Shown one piece after another: positions 627 through 11,297 of a DNA stretch of 43,171 nt; position 1 is the stretch's first letter; each line of letters opens with the position of its first letter. A program made the position numbers and the translations under genes. The stretch covers positions 1-43,171 of the IMG/VR virus record IMGVR_UViG_3300049717_000222; one strand, written 5' to 3'. This DNA comes from a virus. The notes under the pieces are model-generated. The model had not been told where the DNA came from. It made no database searches and saw nothing but the letters and a program-made list of their open reading frames with translations.

Positions 627-1330
627 TTCTTTAGTGCTTTTTCAATTTCTTCAAGTTCAAGTTTGTATTTTTCAAGTATCTCAAGATTTTTGGCTCTCAT
701 TTCTGGAGTCTTTGCCTTTTCAGATAACCGGGAATATTTACTGATATAGGTTCGAATGGTTAACCTGCGGGAAATCAAATCACCTTTATCCATTTCTTCG
801 ATATTCCTTTTAATAGGTTCCGGACGAATAGGTTTCGATGGTAAAACCCCATGTTTATCATAATGACCAAGCCTTTCATAAGCATCCGATATTGAATCTG
901 ATATTTCCAGGATTCTTAATGCATTGGTCAATCTCTGATCATTGGTAGGTATATATTCCAATGTGGCATGGAGATTATCACGCTCTTTTAGCATCATTTT
1001 TATTTCTTCAAAGAGCACTTTAGCATCTTCCTGGAGTGGCCGGTGAATATTAGCCTCAAATTTCGGTTCAATTACAGATTTTATTATTTTAGGCTCTATA
1101 ATCTTTGCAATTATCGGTTTTCCTATTATTGGCTTCGGAAGTGAATGAATCTCAGGGGTATTTATCAGTTTCTTAAGTTCGTATTCCAATATTTCTTTAT
1201 TCCTGGTAGAAGCTGATCCACGCCGGAGCATCATTTTTTGATTTGGACTACTACCATATTTTTCATACAAGGTCACCCCGGCATTATATTCCATCCCTGA
1301 ATCAAACCAATGTTTTATTTCTTCAATCAT
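623..1330 (-). CDS. Hypothetical protein upstream of ParB-methyltransferase
   Basis: A 235-aa soluble protein of no function I can name. Residues 60-90 are a proline/isoleucine/lysine-rich linker with repeated KPII/EPKII units. The C-terminal half is charged and helical (EKAKTPEMRAKNLEILEKYKLELEEIEKALKK), probably coiled coil. It overlaps the upstream glycosyltransferase by 8 nt and the downstream ParB-methyltransferase by 3 nt (ATGA), so it is translated as part of the glycosyltransferase-to-terminase operon. Its position might suggest a DNA-packaging accessory role, but no sequence feature proves this. Confidence 0.7.
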   Translation of the reverse strand: MIEEIKHWFDSGMEYNAGVTLYEKYGSSPNQKMMLRRGSASTRNKEILEYELKKLINTPEIHSLPKPIIGKPIIAKIIEPKIIKSVIEPKFEANIHRPLQEDAKVLFEEIKMMLKERDNLHATLEYIPTNDQRLTNALRILEISDSISDAYERLGHYDKHGVLPSKPIRPEPIKRNIEEMDKGDLISRRLTIRTYISKYSRLSEKAKTPEMRAKNLEILEKYKLELEEIEKALKK

Positions 1331-2030
1331 TTAATGACTTTTTTTGCTTGTTCAAAAATTCATACCACTCCGGAGCTTTCCGATTTGGCGCAAATGAAAA
1401 ACTTTTTTGATGTACCCGGTATTTCATCAATACCTGTTGATGATTATAAATGGTGTATCCTGCTTTGAGAAATTTTATCCATAAGGCAAAATCCTCAGCT
1501 AATGTTGGAGGGATATTCCCATATCCACCAAGTTTCAAAATAGTATCACGCCGGTACGCAATGCCAGGATGATTAACAAACCAATATTCTGCTGCTTCAC
1601 TGGCTGCATATTCTTTTGTCACTTCAAATGGATGATGAGAATACCATTCCCGGGACTGTGAAATCAAATGAATCTGGATCCCACAAATATGCCGGTCCGG
1701 ATAAGTAGAAAAAAAATCATTATGAACTTCAAGAAGTTTTGGATCTGCAATATCATCGGCATCCATCCGGACAATAAGTTCATTTTTGCAAAAGGAAAGT
1801 CCAAAATCCAATGCTGCAGCAATACCGTTATTTTCTTTGGTTCTGACAATGCTTAAACAACATTCTCTCTTTATGCCATAAAGAAAATCCGTCAATTCCC
1901 CTTTTTGGTTGTTATCATCAACAATGATAAATTGGAATTCTCTATGGGTTTGAGCAATAATGCTGTCAACTGCTTGTTTGACCCATTCTAATGGAGTATT
2001 GTAAACCGGCATTAAGACTGATATCTTCAT
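1323..2030 (-). CDS. Family 2 (GT-A) glycosyltransferase
   Basis: A compact GT2 enzyme of 235 aa. The N-terminus ISVLMPVYNT is the usual first strand and nucleotide-binding start, FIIVDDN (res 34-40) contacts the nucleotide, RMDADD (res 89-93) is the metal-binding DxD, and LAEDFALW near residue 180 fits the catalytic-base ED motif. There is no membrane segment, so it probably acts in the cytoplasm on a nucleotide-sugar donor; the acceptor is unknown. It overlaps the two-domain transferase upstream by 4 nt. The third transferase-type gene in a row, it may glycosylate a virion protein or alter a host surface glycan; the sequence does not decide. Confidence 0.85.
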   Translation of the reverse strand: MKISVLMPVYNTPLEWVKQAVDSIIAQTHREFQFIIVDDNNQKGELTDFLYGIKRECCLSIVRTKENNGIAAALDFGLSFCKNELIVRMDADDIADPKLLEVHNDFFSTYPDRHICGIQIHLISQSREWYSHHPFEVTKEYAASEAAEYWFVNHPGIAYRRDTILKLGGYGNIPPTLAEDFALWIKFLKAGYTIYNHQQVLMKYRVHQKSFSFAPNRKAPEWYEFLNKQKKSLND

Positions 2031-3430
2031 TTTTTTGAATTTAATTTGTCATCATGCCAATGGATCCTGAATAACGGATTTTTAGTCTGACTCTCAGGAA
2101 AGACTGATGGCTGAATTTTCATCAACCGGCAGATAACAGGAAATGAGATCTGGTCCTGATACGTATATTTGACATTTTCAAACCACCAAGCCATCATTAA
2201 TGACTGCAATGATTTTGTCATTCTTCTCATCATCACTCCACAGGCATATAATCCGGCATGTTCCGGATGAAATTTCCTGTAAGCTGCAATCTGGCCATGG
2301 ATATCTTCATTCTGATATTTTATAAGTGGCAGTGAAGCATTTGCCTCATCATAAATGCAGTTTCTTTCAGGATGTTTATAAAGTAAAATATCAGATTTAA
2401 AATGATCAATGCAATGCTGGATGAATAGTGATGATTTTATTTCAATGGAAGCATCAATAAAAATCATGATATCATATCTTGATAATTCTTTGCATTCCCA
2501 GGGCATTATCTTGAAATATTTAGCTTTCATCCTGGGTGCCAGATCTTGTCTGGGAAGATTGGTCTGAATTATCTGAACGGATTCGGTGTTGGAATTTGAC
2601 AATTTTGAAATATCCACAGAATTGGGATCATCTGTCAGGCAAAAATAATCTGCCGGCATGGTCTGCCTTGGAACAGGTAAAAGAGGTGAATAATTTCCGT
2701 AAATGGTTGTATAGACAGCAATTTTGTTTCTTTTTTTAAAATCATACACTCTTAAAGAATCTGAAACAATTTCATTCCAGCCTTGACCATATTTTTCTTT
2801 CATTCCCCCATCCAATTCAATTTTTGCCGTATCTTCATATTTGACAAGATTGTCCTGGCTATGAATTGTCTGCTGTCCTAAATGCCAGAATGAACTTCCA
2901 TCATCACAATACATTTTAATGCCGCCTTTCATCATCCTAAGAGCATAATCAAACTCAACTCCATATCCTCTTACAAATCTTTCATCAAATAAACCAACCT
3001 TCTCAAAAACATCCCTACGGATCACCGGTGCCGTAAATTCAATGCAATGAACCTGCCGTATATTGCCGGTGGCATGATTATGACATTCCCGAATCCAGCA
3101 GTTATATGACGGAGTGATCATCGGAATATCCTTTTTCGACATTACCTCTTCAATTCTTTTTACAGATGAATCTTTAATGACGATATCGGAATTCATCAGC
3201 CAGAAAGCCTGAAAATCGGTGGTTGAAATAAGATGTTGTATGATACGGTTCCAGTTTGGTGTAAATCCCAGGTTATCCGGATATCTGTAAATTTGATTGG
3301 TAAGAGAATATATGGAAAGATCAATATTTGAACCGTTATCCACTACAATAGCATCAGGCACCATCCGGCATAATCTGTCTGTTAATTCAGGTGTGTTATA
3401 ATGCAGGATCAGCTTGGCTATTTTCATCAT
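2027..3430 (-). CDS. Two-domain glycosyltransferase: GT2 fused to a DUF616-like domain
   Basis: 467 aa with two modules. Residues 1-225 are GT2-like: AKLILHYNTPE start, AIVVDNGSN, the DxD-like FWLMNSDIVI, and GLFDERFVRGYGVEFDYALRM, the usual acceptor-side motif. From about residue 235 a second module begins (KIAVYTTIYGNYSPLLP) with FCLTDDP, RMKAKYFKIMPW, MIFIDASI and ACGVMMRR, a pattern I recognise from DUF616/TOD1-like transferases. Phages usually carry single-domain enzymes, so the fusion suggests one protein adding two sugars or a polymerase-like activity; this is inference. Either of two adjacent ATGs could be the start. It overlaps both neighbours by 4 nt. Confidence 0.8.
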   Translation of the reverse strand: MMKIAKLILHYNTPELTDRLCRMVPDAIVVDNGSNIDLSIYSLTNQIYRYPDNLGFTPNWNRIIQHLISTTDFQAFWLMNSDIVIKDSSVKRIEEVMSKKDIPMITPSYNCWIRECHNHATGNIRQVHCIEFTAPVIRRDVFEKVGLFDERFVRGYGVEFDYALRMMKGGIKMYCDDGSSFWHLGQQTIHSQDNLVKYEDTAKIELDGGMKEKYGQGWNEIVSDSLRVYDFKKRNKIAVYTTIYGNYSPLLPVPRQTMPADYFCLTDDPNSVDISKLSNSNTESVQIIQTNLPRQDLAPRMKAKYFKIMPWECKELSRYDIMIFIDASIEIKSSLFIQHCIDHFKSDILLYKHPERNCIYDEANASLPLIKYQNEDIHGQIAAYRKFHPEHAGLYACGVMMRRMTKSLQSLMMAWWFENVKYTYQDQISFPVICRLMKIQPSVFPESQTKNPLFRIHWHDDKLNSKK

Positions 3431-4182
3431 TTTTCAAATCTTGATTTCTTTGGAAAGGAATTCATCAAAAATGCCTTAAGATTGTCATTCAATCCGGCAT
3501 CATTATGATTGAGATATAATTTCCCTTTGCATTTTTTCTTCAGATCGCCGGTTGAAGAGGTATAGAATTCATTGTCTTCATTGTTAAAAAATTGAATCCC
3601 TTTGCAATCATGATAAAGAACTGGTTTTGAATTCACAAAAAAAACATTATAATATAAAGTTGAAGTCAAAAGTCTTTTTTCCAGAGCATCATAAACTGAA
3701 ATGATCCAGAGCATCTTTTCCCGTTCAAATAATTCAGGAAAATGAGTCTCCGTATTCCATCCATGATATCCTTTCCATTTCACGATCCGGATGGTCCGGT
3801 AAAGTTGCAGCCACCAGGTACCGGTTCTCTCCGGTAAATAATCGCTGTCATACATGGCTTTGAATTTGCCAATTTCCTTTAAATTAACTTTATCCAAAAG
3901 ATAGATATCATCATACATCCTGATAAACTTTCTTCCTGCATCAGGATGATTCAGATAAATAAGAATTTTACTGATTGCATCAAAAACGGTATTTTCACTC
4001 ATCCCTTCACACCGGGTATGAGGAATAAAAGTCACTTTTTTAGGATCTATATACTCGGGTAGATCTCCGACAATGAAAACCCTGAATTCTTCTTTTAAAT
4101 TTTTTTGAAGTGATCTTAAGGAATACCGCAATTCATCCCATGATGCCTCTCGTAAAAAGTATGGATAGTAAACATCAATCAT
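3427..4182 (-). CDS. Stealth-like sugar-phosphotransferase / glycosyltransferase
   Basis: 251 aa. WDELRYSLRSLQKN (res 15-28), FIVGDLPEYI, a His-Thr-Arg segment and RMYDDIYLL resemble conserved region 2 of Stealth proteins (sugar-1-phosphate transferases of capsule synthesis). TETHFPELFEREKM fits the later His-Pro region. It lacks the first Stealth block (YTWVDGSD type), so it is a short variant. It is the first gene of the transferase operon. A strong phage-type promoter (4187-4222) puts the -7 box 4 nt before the ATG, so the mRNA should be nearly leaderless. A terminator separates it from the capsid-side genes upstream. Confidence 0.6.
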   Translation of the reverse strand: MIDVYYPYFLREASWDELRYSLRSLQKNLKEEFRVFIVGDLPEYIDPKKVTFIPHTRCEGMSENTVFDAISKILIYLNHPDAGRKFIRMYDDIYLLDKVNLKEIGKFKAMYDSDYLPERTGTWWLQLYRTIRIVKWKGYHGWNTETHFPELFEREKMLWIISVYDALEKRLLTSTLYYNVFFVNSKPVLYHDCKGIQFFNNEDNEFYTSSTGDLKKKCKGKLYLNHNDAGLNDNLKAFLMNSFPKKSRFEK

Positions 4183-5039: not shown

Positions 5040-6008
5040 TTAAAAACTTGCACTCTTTTCATCTCCGGAGATTGAAGCAAAAATGGCTTCTTCAACTGCA
5101 AATCCAACAGCTTCATGCCAGTCAGCAAAAATGGAGATCACCCTTTTTATTGATTCAATACGGAGAGTGCTCGGACCATCATTCACCTTTGTCAATTTGA
5201 TGAAGTTTTCCTGTGGTGTGGCAAAGATCATATCCTGGCCAGCCATGCTCGGAAGTGGAACGAGTGTCAGATTGGTTCCATCAATCATGTGATCTTCCAT
5301 ACCTTTATAGGTAGGATCGATACCGAGCAGATCTCTCTTTCTGCGCAGGTAAGCGCGGAACCATTTCCGGCTCATGTAAATGTTCATCGGGACAGATTGG
5401 TAAACTTCCTTCATGTTATCTGCAAAGGCTTCAATCTGGTTGAAGATATCCAGATGAGTAAAGGTTCCAAGACCAATGAAATTTACTTTTGAGGTTCCTG
5501 CATTGTATTTGTTCTGGATGATGGTGCAGAAACCATCCATTGATAGGCCGGTATCCTGAGCAACACCATCAACAGGGGCTGCATACACACCGTTTGCAAT
5601 TATCTTGAGTTCCCTGTTCTCAGCGATCTTGGGCATGATCAGTTTTTCAAGAATATACCGGGTAATCGGCCATTGAGACCTTTCTACATTCTCTGTGACC
5701 AGAAATCCGAGCCAGCTTCCAACAACATCATCCGGAGTTAGGTCGATATCGAATTTATGCCGGCGATGAACAGTGGAAATGGGTGTGAAGGCAGCCGTTC
5801 CTTTCGGTGTCCATCCCTGTTGAAATCCCTGAACGATATCATCAATCACTGCTTTTGAAGCGCGATAATCATCATCCTGAATGATATGAGTCATAAATTT
5901 CTCCGAAACTGTGTCCTGCAGCAAGAGAGTTTTTATGTAACTCTGATTTTTCCCAATCCAGGAACCAAATTCGGAAACTAATTGGGTAATGTTGATTGTT
6001 GGAGGCAT
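5040..6008 (-). CDS. Major capsid protein (HK97-type, putative)
   Basis: 322 aa, directly downstream of the protease-scaffold gene, which is the standard protease-capsid order. The sequence has features I associate with Bacteroidota phage coat proteins: a helical N-terminus (INITQLVSEFGSWIGKNQSYIKTLLL), a long alpha/beta body including FDIDLTPDDVVGSWLGFL and NIYMSRKWFRAYLRRKRDLLGIDPTY, and the C-terminal ISIFADWHEAVGFAVEEAIFASI. There are no membrane segments or enzymatic motifs. The fold itself was not tested. A weak copy of the phage-type promoter (6025-6060) lies just upstream and could give extra transcription of this highly needed product. Confidence 0.75.
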   Translation of the reverse strand: MPPTINITQLVSEFGSWIGKNQSYIKTLLLQDTVSEKFMTHIIQDDDYRASKAVIDDIVQGFQQGWTPKGTAAFTPISTVHRRHKFDIDLTPDDVVGSWLGFLVTENVERSQWPITRYILEKLIMPKIAENRELKIIANGVYAAPVDGVAQDTGLSMDGFCTIIQNKYNAGTSKVNFIGLGTFTHLDIFNQIEAFADNMKEVYQSVPMNIYMSRKWFRAYLRRKRDLLGIDPTYKGMEDHMIDGTNLTLVPLPSMAGQDMIFATPQENFIKLTKVNDGPSTLRIESIKRVISIFADWHEAVGFAVEEAIFASISGDEKSASF

Positions 6009-8815: not shown

Positions 8816-9127
8816 TTAATTAAATTTATATCGATCGTTTTCTTCAATAATAATCGTTGTAAATGGAAATCCTGTTTTTGGAACTTGCTGAATCGCCTCA
8901 AGTAACCCACATGACGAAGTAAAAACTATATGTTTCTCGCCATTGATAGAAATTTGAAGGTGAAGGCATTTATCGCATCCTCTTTCCTTAAAGGCATTAA
9001 CCTTTGAATCCTCAATCTTCCAATCATGAATTACTATCTCCTTTCCCAATATTTTTGAGATCTTTATTTTATCTCCAACAAAACTCTTAGCATTTATAGT
9101 GATATTAAATTGATCGAACCGGTTCAT
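8816..9127 (-). CDS. Small protein overlapping the DGR reverse transcriptase; candidate accessory factor
   Basis: 103 aa. It looks like a small beta-barrel: FVGDKIKISKILGKEIVIHDWKIEDSK, then CDKCLHLQISINGEKHIVFTSSCGLLEAIQQV and PFTTIIIEEN, a strand pattern that would suit an OB fold. It holds a CxxC pair (CDKC). The ATG at 9127 lies inside the reverse transcriptase gene, a 23-nt overlap in another frame, so translation is coupled. No Avd-like four-helix protein is visible near this DGR, so this gene is the natural candidate for the accessory role, for example binding RNA or single-stranded cDNA. That function is inference. Confidence 0.7.
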   Translation of the reverse strand: MNRFDQFNITINAKSFVGDKIKISKILGKEIVIHDWKIEDSKVNAFKERGCDKCLHLQISINGEKHIVFTSSCGLLEAIQQVPKTGFPFTTIIIEENDRYKFN

Positions 9128-10073
9128 TTAAAAGTTTTTTTAGTAAATTTTTAGAATTACAATGCAATGCCCATCCTGTATATGATGCAATGGATTGCTT
9201 ACTTGGGTTCCGGGAAAGCATCCGGGCAAAATTCTGTTTAATGGTTTTTCTCAGTAATATATGAGTATGAAAGAAAACATAACCGACAAAATCAATACCA
9301 CGGGCATCAACCGGGAATACCTGGTAATTATCTTTTACTACCAGTTTCAATTTTTGATCAAAATAGAGTCGGATATCAGCCAAGATTTGATGTAAGCAAG
9401 ATTTATTGTCGCAAAGGATCACAATGTCATCGGCATATCGGAAATAATATTTGACTTTCTTTTCCTCTTTGATCCAGTGATCAAAGTAGGTCAAATAGAA
9501 ATTGGCAAAAAACTGACTCAGATAATTTCCGATCGGAAGGCCATCGGTAGAGTCTATAATCTCATCCAGAAGCCATAATAGATCCCGATCCTTGATCTTT
9601 TTGCGTAATAATTGTTTTAAGATATCATGATTGATGGTAGGATAGAACTTCCTAACATCTAATTTTAAGCAATATTGGGTACCCTTAATATTTTTGAGTG
9701 CATTCTTAACGGCATTTGCTGCAGCATGGATACCTTTTCCTTTAATGCAACTATAAGTATCAGCTGTAAATGCGGAAACAAATAATGGTTCCAGGATGTT
9801 CATTACTGCATGATGAGTAATCCGGTCCGGAAAGTATGGTAATTTGAATATGATTCTCTCTTTGGGTTCATATATCGGGAATGTAACATATTCAGATGTT
9901 TTATAGGTTTTATTCTTAAGCATTTCATGAAGTTTCAGAATATTATCTTCCCGGTACCGGTCATGCTCAATAATACCAGGTTGTTTTAGTTTTCCTTTCC
10001 GTGCAATTGAATCTGCAAGCATCAGGTTATCTATGCTGTAAATTTGTTCATATAAATTTCCTTTTCTTTTCAT
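9105..10073 (-). CDS. Diversity-generating retroelement reverse transcriptase
   Basis: 322 aa, the usual length for DGR enzymes. Motifs: N-terminal region (NLYEQIYSIDNLMLADSIARKGK), motif A with Asp139 in YCLKLDVRKFYP, motif B as IGNYLSQFFANFYL (res 181-194), motif C with catalytic YADD (213-216), and the C-terminal IDFVGY and ASYTGWALHCNS. The IGxxxSQ form of motif B is typical of DGR enzymes, where retrons and group II introns have QGxxxSP. It copies the template-repeat RNA (10175-10261) with errors at adenines, and the cDNA then replaces the variable repeats. There is no maturase, endonuclease or retron msr/msd region. The gene is 100 nt downstream of the template repeat. Confidence 0.95.
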   Translation of the reverse strand: MKRKGNLYEQIYSIDNLMLADSIARKGKLKQPGIIEHDRYREDNILKLHEMLKNKTYKTSEYVTFPIYEPKERIIFKLPYFPDRITHHAVMNILEPLFVSAFTADTYSCIKGKGIHAAANAVKNALKNIKGTQYCLKLDVRKFYPTINHDILKQLLRKKIKDRDLLWLLDEIIDSTDGLPIGNYLSQFFANFYLTYFDHWIKEEKKVKYYFRYADDIVILCDNKSCLHQILADIRLYFDQKLKLVVKDNYQVFPVDARGIDFVGYVFFHTHILLRKTIKQNFARMLSRNPSKQSIASYTGWALHCNSKNLLKKLLNEPVRSI

Positions 10074-10174
10074 GGCCTTTGCTTTATAAGATCGTTTTCA
10101 TCTGTTGATTACCAACGCTCTTTTTATTTTCTTGATTTTTTGCCATGTGGGCATGGTCTATATTGCTAATTAAA

Positions 10175-10261
10175 CAAACTCGCGAACTGACATTCGTATT
10201 CGTATTATCGTAGTTGTAATTCGAATTCGAAAAGTCGAACCTGGAACTGGACGAAAGAACT
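10175..10261 (-). repeat. DGR template repeat (TR)
   Basis: About 86 bp, homologous to the variable repeats at 10374-10460 and 10791-10871. Between 10180 and 10254, 15 of 22 plus-strand T positions (A in the sense strand) differ in VR1 and 16 of 22 in VR2, while none of the 53 non-T positions differ in either. Read as protein, the diversified codons are mostly AAC/AAT (Asn), TAC (Tyr) and AGT/AGG, which is normal for templates. The 3' end (IMH*-like, 10175-10190) differs from both variable repeats at further positions that the two share. Confidence 0.95.
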
Positions 10262-10291
10262 ATCAGCTTATGCAACATACCACCTTTCATT

Positions 10292-10705
10292 TTATTCTGA
10301 GATCAAAAAGAATTCAACATATTCCTTTCCGAATTGTTCTCCTATATACAGAGCCTTTTCCGATGTATCAGTGCAAAGGCGCGAACCGACAACCGTACGC
10401 GTAAGATCGAAGTGGTAAATCGAAGACGAAAAGTCGAACCCGGAACCGGACGAAAGAACTTTAAACCAGGGATAATACTTATACTGATTATAATCATTCC
10501 AATTGGGAGTCCATCCATTATTGATGGCTTTGAAGATTATATAAAGTTTATAGCAATTGATAATTGCTTTTTGGAATGAAGTCGGGATCATGGATACATC
10601 CGGCAATTTTTCAGGATCAATATTTTCCTTTTTACAGGCATCTTCAAAGGATTTGATTGTTTTATAATCAAATTTTTCTTTTGCTTTTGTGGTTTTTGGT
10701 GACAT
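10292..10705 (-). CDS. DGR target protein 1
   Basis: 137 aa. Residues 15-70 are a helical domain (IKSFEDACKKENIDPEKLPDV; AIINCYKLYIIFKAINNGWTPNW) shared with target 2. Then comes NQYKYYPWFKV and the variable segment (SSGSGFDFSSSIYHFDLTRTVVGSRLC), followed by a constant helical end (EKALYIGEQFGKEYVEFFLI). The fold is probably the C-type-lectin-like one used by DGR targets, with the conserved GSGF and VGSRLC motifs framing the diversified loops; that assignment is from family memory. It lies 4 nt downstream of target 2 and just upstream of the template. There is no signal peptide, so if it reaches the virion it must assemble in the cytoplasm. Confidence 0.9.
   Translation of the reverse strand: MSPKTTKAKEKFDYKTIKSFEDACKKENIDPEKLPDVSMIPTSFQKAIINCYKLYIIFKAINNGWTPNWNDYNQYKYYPWFKVLSSGSGFDFSSSIYHFDLTRTVVGSRLCTDTSEKALYIGEQFGKEYVEFFLISE
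10374..10460 (-). repeat. DGR variable repeat 1 (VR1)
   Basis: Aligns to the template at an offset of 199 bp without gaps. It has 15 substitutions at template adenines and none elsewhere between the borders. The 3' (low-coordinate) end reads GTCGGTTCGCGCCTTTGC on the sense strand, identical to VR2 but not to the template, as expected for the initiation-of-mutagenic-homing (IMH) site. Confidence 0.95.
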
Positions 10706-10709
10706 GGTT

Positions 10710-11297
10710 TTACTTTTTTATGGTGAATAGATCTCTATGAATTTCAATGAACTGCCTTCCGAAATAATTAGCCAATTCTTCAGTTTTTAAGCAAAGGCGC
10801 GAACCGACACCCGTACACGTAAAATCGCAGCCGCAATGCGAATCCGAAAAGTCGAACCCGGAACCGGACGACCATTTAAACCATGGCCACCATTTTCTTT
10901 CATTTCTATCATTCCAGTTTGGTTCCCATCCTTCATTAAGGACCTTTGCTATCAGTTTTAACTTTTTGTAAGCAAATTCATCCTCTGAATCATAGGAATG
11001 TTCTACATTATCAGGATCTATTCCTAATTCATGACAGGCATCCTCAAATGTCTTAATGCGGTCAATGATCTTTCCTGAGAAACATTCTTTACCAAATGTC
11101 TCTATCAGGATCTCTTGAAACCATTTAGGTACATCCTTAAATAGTTTTAATGCTTTTGATTTTTCTAATTGTAGTGTTTCCATGTTTTCCTTGTTTTGAT
11201 TGGTATTAATTGATTTTGAATTATTATTAAGAATTCCTTTCATTCCTCTTTCAATTATATCATGAAAATGTTCCTTAATTGCACTCATATTCTCCAT
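10710..11297 (-). CDS. DGR target protein 2
   Basis: 195 aa. The N-terminal 60 residues are Asn/Lys-rich and look like a linker or coiled coil. The shared helical domain follows (IKTFEDACHELGIDPDNV; AYKKLKLIAKVLNEGWEPNW), then ERKWWPWFKW and the variable segment SSGSGFDFSDSHCGCDFTCTG, the constant VGSRLC, and a helical end (EELANYFGRQFIEIHRDLF). It currently shows an unusual number of Cys at variable positions (three). The ATG shares one base with the stop of the small membrane-protein gene upstream (TAATG). The two targets share the constant scaffold, so they may be alternative binding subunits or a heteromer. Confidence 0.9.
   Translation of the reverse strand: MENMSAIKEHFHDIIERGMKGILNNNSKSINTNQNKENMETLQLEKSKALKLFKDVPKWFQEILIETFGKECFSGKIIDRIKTFEDACHELGIDPDNVEHSYDSEDEFAYKKLKLIAKVLNEGWEPNWNDRNERKWWPWFKWSSGSGFDFSDSHCGCDFTCTGVGSRLCLKTEELANYFGRQFIEIHRDLFTIKK
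10791..10871 (-). repeat. DGR variable repeat 2 (VR2)
   Basis: Aligns to the template at an offset of 617 bp. It has 16 substitutions at template adenines and none at other bases. Homology stops about 6 nt earlier at its 5' (high-coordinate) end than in VR1. It shares the IMH-like 18-mer GTCGGTTCGCGCCTTTGC with VR1. Confidence 0.95.

Follow-up and report, generated by a model that had tools for sequence, protein, structure and literature searches.

What does a phage diversify when its reverse transcriptase (RT) stands next to one template and two altered copies of it? Diversity-generating retroelements (DGRs) of phages are generally understood as diversifiers of tail receptors with C-type lectin targets. 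The locus discussed here lies in viral DNA of 43,171 nucleotides (IMG/VR record IMGVR_UViG_3300049717_000222, positions 1 to 43,171), the whole of which is called the window. Judged by its sequence, the element is a genuine DGR of a known kind, because the differences between template repeat (TR) and variable repeats (VR) are restricted to adenines, the RT is of the DGR type, the RNA of the TR covaries, TR and VRs show a fixed difference at their 3' ends, and near-identical relatives diverge in the same A-restricted manner. The features that go beyond routine are a conserved, active design with paired small targets, a gene context that is not that of the tail, and a candidate accessory gene.

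The window was compared with 168 further loci, taken from viral contigs and from genome contigs, the latter scanned with the RT. TR/VR pairs were detectable in 148 loci, the window included; these and the following numbers count loci, not independent lineages, as one phage is in some cases represented by more than one contig, and some VRs are lost at contig ends.

Template and variable repeats

The three repeats were recomputed as ungapped alignments:

10180-10254, minus strand: template repeat (TR)
10379-10453, minus strand: variable repeat VR1, in target gene B; 15 of 22 A changed, 53 of 53 other positions identical
10797-10871, minus strand: variable repeat VR2, in target gene A; 16 of 22 A changed, 53 of 53 other positions identical

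The probability that all differences fall on A by chance is 7.5e-11 for VR1 and 8.7e-12 for VR2 (hypergeometric). Adenines at codon positions 1 or 2 and AAY codons are the usual DGR design. Here, 21 of the 22 TR adenines occupy these positions, and six codons are AAY. At four of the changed A sites (TR codons AGT, AGG, AGT and CGA), VR1 and VR2 agree in their base (G, G, G and C, respectively), and these are positions that are largely conserved in the relatives. They are probably fixed differences between template and target and not random changes, so that the number of random changes would be somewhat below 15 and 16. The identity of VR1 to the TR extends some 7 nt further in the 5' direction, to 10460. 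The 43-kb window was found to hold no further copy of the TR, the closest candidate agreeing at 28 of the 53 non-A positions.

Reverse transcriptase, 3' boundary and RNA

On the 3' side of the repeats the following elements are seen:

9105-10073, minus strand: DGR reverse transcriptase (322 aa, phrog_1423) with the motifs IGNYLSQ and YADD
10089-10153, minus strand: structured RNA 3' of the TR, with a hairpin (10141-10144/10150-10153) and a stem (10089-10095/10115-10121)
10174-10188, minus strand: candidate IMH* at the 3' end of the TR, AGTTCGCGAGTTTGT
10373-10387, minus strand: candidate IMH of VR1, GGTTCGCGCCTTTGC
10791-10805, minus strand: candidate IMH of VR2, GGTTCGCGCCTTTGC, coding for GSRLC

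The RT matches the profile of phrog_1423 with 1.3e-124. Its best match among solved structures is PDB 8ub7, “Reverse transcriptase” (1.5e-45), which we take to be the RT of the DGR of Bordetella phage BPP-1. By these matches and its motifs, it is a DGR-type RT next to the TR. In a tree of 128 RTs, built by a quick method and with many open forks, it falls inside a group with small targets, mostly from Bacteroidota and some from Ignavibacteriota. The earlier note had described two repeats that align without gaps to 10180-10254, with all 15 and 16 differences at template adenines and the 53 other positions unchanged, and an RT with IGxxxSQ and YADD; the recomputation returned the same repeats and counts, and both motifs are indeed present.

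The candidate IMH segments of the two VRs (10373-10387 and 10791-10805) show fixed differences from the candidate IMH* segment of the TR (10174-10188). CGCCTT, a part of the candidate IMH, which encodes the conserved GSRLC, is located at the 3' end in 221 of 259 VRs and in none of 148 TRs. The VRs thus appear to carry an IMH at their 3' end and the TR a differing IMH*.

An alignment of 74 sequences supports two principal helices, plus a short inner helix, in the RNA downstream of the TR. Changes on both sides were seen in 10 of 12 base pairs, and 96% of the cells are paired. The covariation score, 0.575, exceeds all shuffle controls (0.212 in shuffles, at most 0.128 when the partners were slid). 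We infer that this structure serves the RT. A 68-aa ORF over the TR (10084-10290) was rejected as a coding gene, since both the TR and the covarying RNA lie within it. The Rfam families RT-17 and RT-14 both cover a structured segment between TR and RT, as here; the window's copy scores just under their cut-offs, and the Rfam records name no function. The match to RT-17 (10078-10158) is full-length and reaches 36.8 bits, below the gathering cut-off of 40.4 bits. In one relative, L084, the RNA reaches 44 bits, above the cut-off, and sits exactly between the DGR template and its RT (5918-5999 of that locus), which suggests that RT-17 represents the 3' portion of the template RNAs of DGRs.

The paired target genes

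Both VRs lie in small genes:

10710-11297, minus strand: target gene A (195 aa, phrog_11581), upstream member of the pair; VR2 is residues 143-167
10292-10705, minus strand: target gene B (137 aa, phrog_11581); VR1 is residues 85-109

B starts 4 nt past the stop of A. Both match phrog_11581 only, a family without functional annotation in PHROG, and neither matches tail protein families or solved folds. In typical DGR variable proteins the VR lies at or near the C-terminus; in A and B alike, 28 residues follow it. In the predicted model of B, confidence is high along most of the chain and low in the VR; the scaffold is helical (helices 20-26, 42-62, 115-124 and 126-133). The model matched no PDB fold and, otherwise, uncharacterised viral proteins only. 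A C-type lectin fold at the VR was likewise matched neither by PDB fold nor by sequence, the VR being the part of the B model with low confidence. Weak matches of A to metallo-beta-lactamase models and of B to Cas6b were judged to be due to chance.

The pair is common. Exactly two VRs are found in 88 of the 148 loci, three or four in 11; the two-VR loci usually represent the same cassette as the window's and come mostly from Bacteroidota. In the common layout, about 195 and 610 nt separate the TR from the starts of the two VRs upstream of it, and the RT begins about 100 nt downstream of the TR. Organisms in the genome records include Prolixibacteraceae, Flavobacteriaceae, Weeksellaceae, Sphingobacteriaceae and Chitinophagaceae. 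In a tree of the targets without their VR residues, which has few columns and rough bootstrap values, upstream and downstream genes are largely two lineages: one side holds 73 of 79 B genes plus 5 A genes, and 10 label changes compare with about 53 in shuffles. In 90 pairs, B mostly starts within 15 nt of the stop of A. From this tree and the short gaps, A and B are read as old, co-inherited paralogue lineages in fixed order, not as recent duplications. In two Dyadobacter loci (L123 and L130), a single TR seems to serve three to four small-target VRs of the same family, spread across about 13 kb; one of these VRs belongs to a degenerate-looking gene. In three other loci (L004, L049 and L132), additional members of this target family, whose VRs are A-restricted, are found at a distance of 3-5 kb from the cassette.

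Are A and B tail proteins after all? They might be small, virion-attached receptor-binding proteins of a phage that switches its tropism, as BPP-1 or the Bacuni phages do. Most targets of phage DGRs annotated so far are tail proteins (PMC8144416; PMC12629997), and the sister clade of the RT targets a tail protein that carries the same VR motif. The absence of a tail-family match in A and B speaks against it, as does their place in the window, between a primase-like gene and the head genes. Nor are tail-fibre families among the commonest known neighbours of the cassette in 29 relatives, which are primase, ATPase, Mu Gam, methyltransferase and head protease. A small virion protein would still be compatible with each of these three observations, and many virion proteins, too, are without family matches. 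Such a role in tropism is quite possible, yet we would bet against it.

Comparison with known systems

BPP-1 (mtd/avd/bRT) shares with the present element the A-specific mutagenesis from TR to VR, a homologous RT, the fixed 3' difference between TR and VR and a structured RNA after the TR. It has, however, one tail-protein target, whereas here two small targets continue for about 28 residues past the VR, and it has avd, whereas here no Avd was found and a different small gene follows the RT.

The sister RT clade, also of Bacteroidota (e.g., L134, L140 and L148), has a related RT, A-restricted variation and the same VR motif ending in GSRLC; in L148 a phrog_19665 gene, the family of the window's small gene, is found about 400 nt downstream. 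In contrast to A and B, its target is a single protein of about 470 aa (phrog_5302), annotated as a tail protein. A C-type lectin label for these large targets was dropped in favour of the PHROG tail annotation, as neither Pfam nor PDB gave a match. In a profile comparison of A/B with this target, the 28-column VR motif alone aligns (94.5%), and no homology was found outside the VR. This suggests that VR and IMH are a portable unit that can be carried on different scaffolds.

One template with two target genes is also known from Bacuni phages (PMC8143477) and tentaclin phages (PMC10743442). There, one of the targets may be distant, and the targets are adhesins of the C-type lectin or Ig type; here they are adjacent small paralogues that keep their order across many genera. 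Bacuni phages moreover have Avd, which was not found here. The DGR of the archaeal virus ANMV-1 (PMC4372165) resembles ours in a phrog_19665-like gene directly downstream of the RT, but differs in its single target, AdtA, and its very divergent RT. An ORF is marked as Avd in the ANMV-1 paper (PMC4372165).

A candidate accessory gene

A further gene follows the RT:

8816-9127, minus strand: candidate DGR accessory gene (103 aa, phrog_19665), overlapping the end of the RT gene by 23 nt

Avd is an accessory protein that is present in most, not all, DGRs. In the window, neither Avd (PF05635) nor HRDC (PF00570) was found, the search for Avd being a weak one, since Avd sequences diverge; there is also no ORF of the size of Avd between targets and RT. 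Of the relatives, in turn, 139 have a homologue of phrog_19665, whose median distance from the RT start is 946 nt; no other neighbour in the window, RT and targets apart, is shared by as many as 15. In about 100 non-redundant loci, the homologue is no more than a few tens of nt away from where the RT match ends. It is single-copy in 12 of 12 whole genomes, and in the three that were checked by coordinates (G001, G002 and G004) the copy is located at the DGR. A phage collection gave only two matches, both directly downstream of DGR RTs: ANMV-1 (L171, KP703175.1, 3950-4246) and vir525 (L172, 3995-4282). Both are archaeal viruses, and in both records the gene is unnamed. We propose from this linkage to DGR RTs that the product of 8816-9127 serves where Avd serves elsewhere, as a functional partner of the RT. 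It is predicted to be a compact alpha/beta protein, for which Foldseek gave no significant match. An OB-fold, suggested by the order of strands and helices, was supported neither by Foldseek nor by profile search. Wu et al. (NAR, 2018) have reportedly surveyed DGRs. One DGR-associated protein without Pfam family had been suggested in earlier work (PMC10053308), and the accessory gene may, thus, already have been flagged in an earlier survey.

The earlier note had called the element a complete DGR with one template and two adjacent targets. The DGR, its single TR and the adjacency of A and B, 4 nt apart, hold. “Complete” should be qualified, as Avd was not found in the weak search mentioned and the probable accessory gene lies outside the interval given, which started at 9105 and, thereby, omitted 8816-9127, a part of the cassette. 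That the targets are unlike tail proteins and form an ancient, conserved pair is additional to that note.

Activity of the lineage

Near-identical pairs of loci provide a means to tell the action of a DGR from ordinary divergence. L084 and L087 differ in their VRs at 11 of 47 sites opposite TR adenines and at 0 of 122 other VR sites; outside the VRs, no difference is seen at 80 TR sites or at 1846 sites elsewhere. Only one of their VRs has changed, which implies that the two VRs can be rewritten separately. L106 and L108, from two Elizabethkingia species, differ at 23 of 36 VR sites opposite TR adenines, 10 in one VR and 13 in the other, and at 0 of 116 other VR sites; the corresponding counts outside the VRs are 0 of 80 in the TR and 61 of 1862 elsewhere. 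The same A-restricted behaviour is observed in the clade with large targets (L140/L141 and L149/L166). As read from these comparisons, the DGR lineage is active, because near-identical relatives differ almost solely at template-A positions.

Could the element of the window's own phage nevertheless be genuine but dead, with frozen VRs and the pattern a relic? An exact 22-mer search yielded no near-identical sister contig of this phage, which leaves room for such a reading. It is improbable, though: the RT is intact with its motifs, RNA and IMH signals are retained, close families are active, and decay would have blurred the 53 non-A positions that are identical in both VRs. The window's own copy is presumably active, too. 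That there is no DGR at all, just ordinary paralogous repeats with an unrelated RT (of the retron, group II or defence type) beside them, can be dismissed. A and B are indeed paralogues, and the RT does match generic RT models in PADLOC and, with scores far under the cut-offs, models of group II and defence RTs. But the A-restriction is strict (P about 1e-11 for each VR), the TR stands apart from the target genes as a third copy, the RT matches phrog_1423 and 8ub7, and the arrangement recurs in 148 loci, with A-restricted divergence between near-identical genomes.

Proposed mechanism and significance

Our preferred reading, the proposed mechanism included, is that a temperate phage of the Bacteroidota type uses the DGR to diversify two small, co-expressed paralogues; we put its probability at roughly 0.7. 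The RT (9105-10073), possibly with the small protein from 8816-9127 in the role of Avd, would bind a transcript that contains the TR (10180-10254) followed by a folded 3' tail (10089-10153). The RT would copy the TR and err at adenines, and the cDNA would replace the VR of A or B by mutagenic retrohoming, the 3' boundary of which would be set by the IMH (GGTTCGCGCCTTTGC) that is absent from the TR. A and B might then act jointly as a variable ligand-binding module outside the standard tail receptor.

A bolder version is doubtful. It holds that A and B assemble into a two-chain hypervariable module, in loose likeness to paired antigen-receptor chains: one template would diversify both chains independently and create combinatorial surfaces on a scaffold other than the C-type lectin, used in phage-host or phage-phage conflict and not in tail-receptor binding, and phrog_19665 would replace Avd.

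With a widespread, active lineage whose paired small targets, kept in fixed order, are unlike tail proteins, the question of what other needs for diversity phages have becomes accessible to tests, and related RTs with a tail target in one clade and paired small targets in the other offer a clean comparison. The candidate accessory protein is common to phages of bacteria and viruses of archaea, and the covarying RNA ties Rfam RT-17 to DGR template RNAs.

Two other features of the window may be mentioned. Upstream of the target operon, past the primase-like gene, the segment 11723-11856 contains (A)CATCCCTA repeated in tandem and an imperfect inverted repeat of 48 nt; these could be origin iterons or operator sites. 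Near the contig end, a run of glycosyltransferase-like genes occupies 1323-4182 (e.g., 1323-2030, MKISVLMPVYNTPLEWVKQAVDSI).
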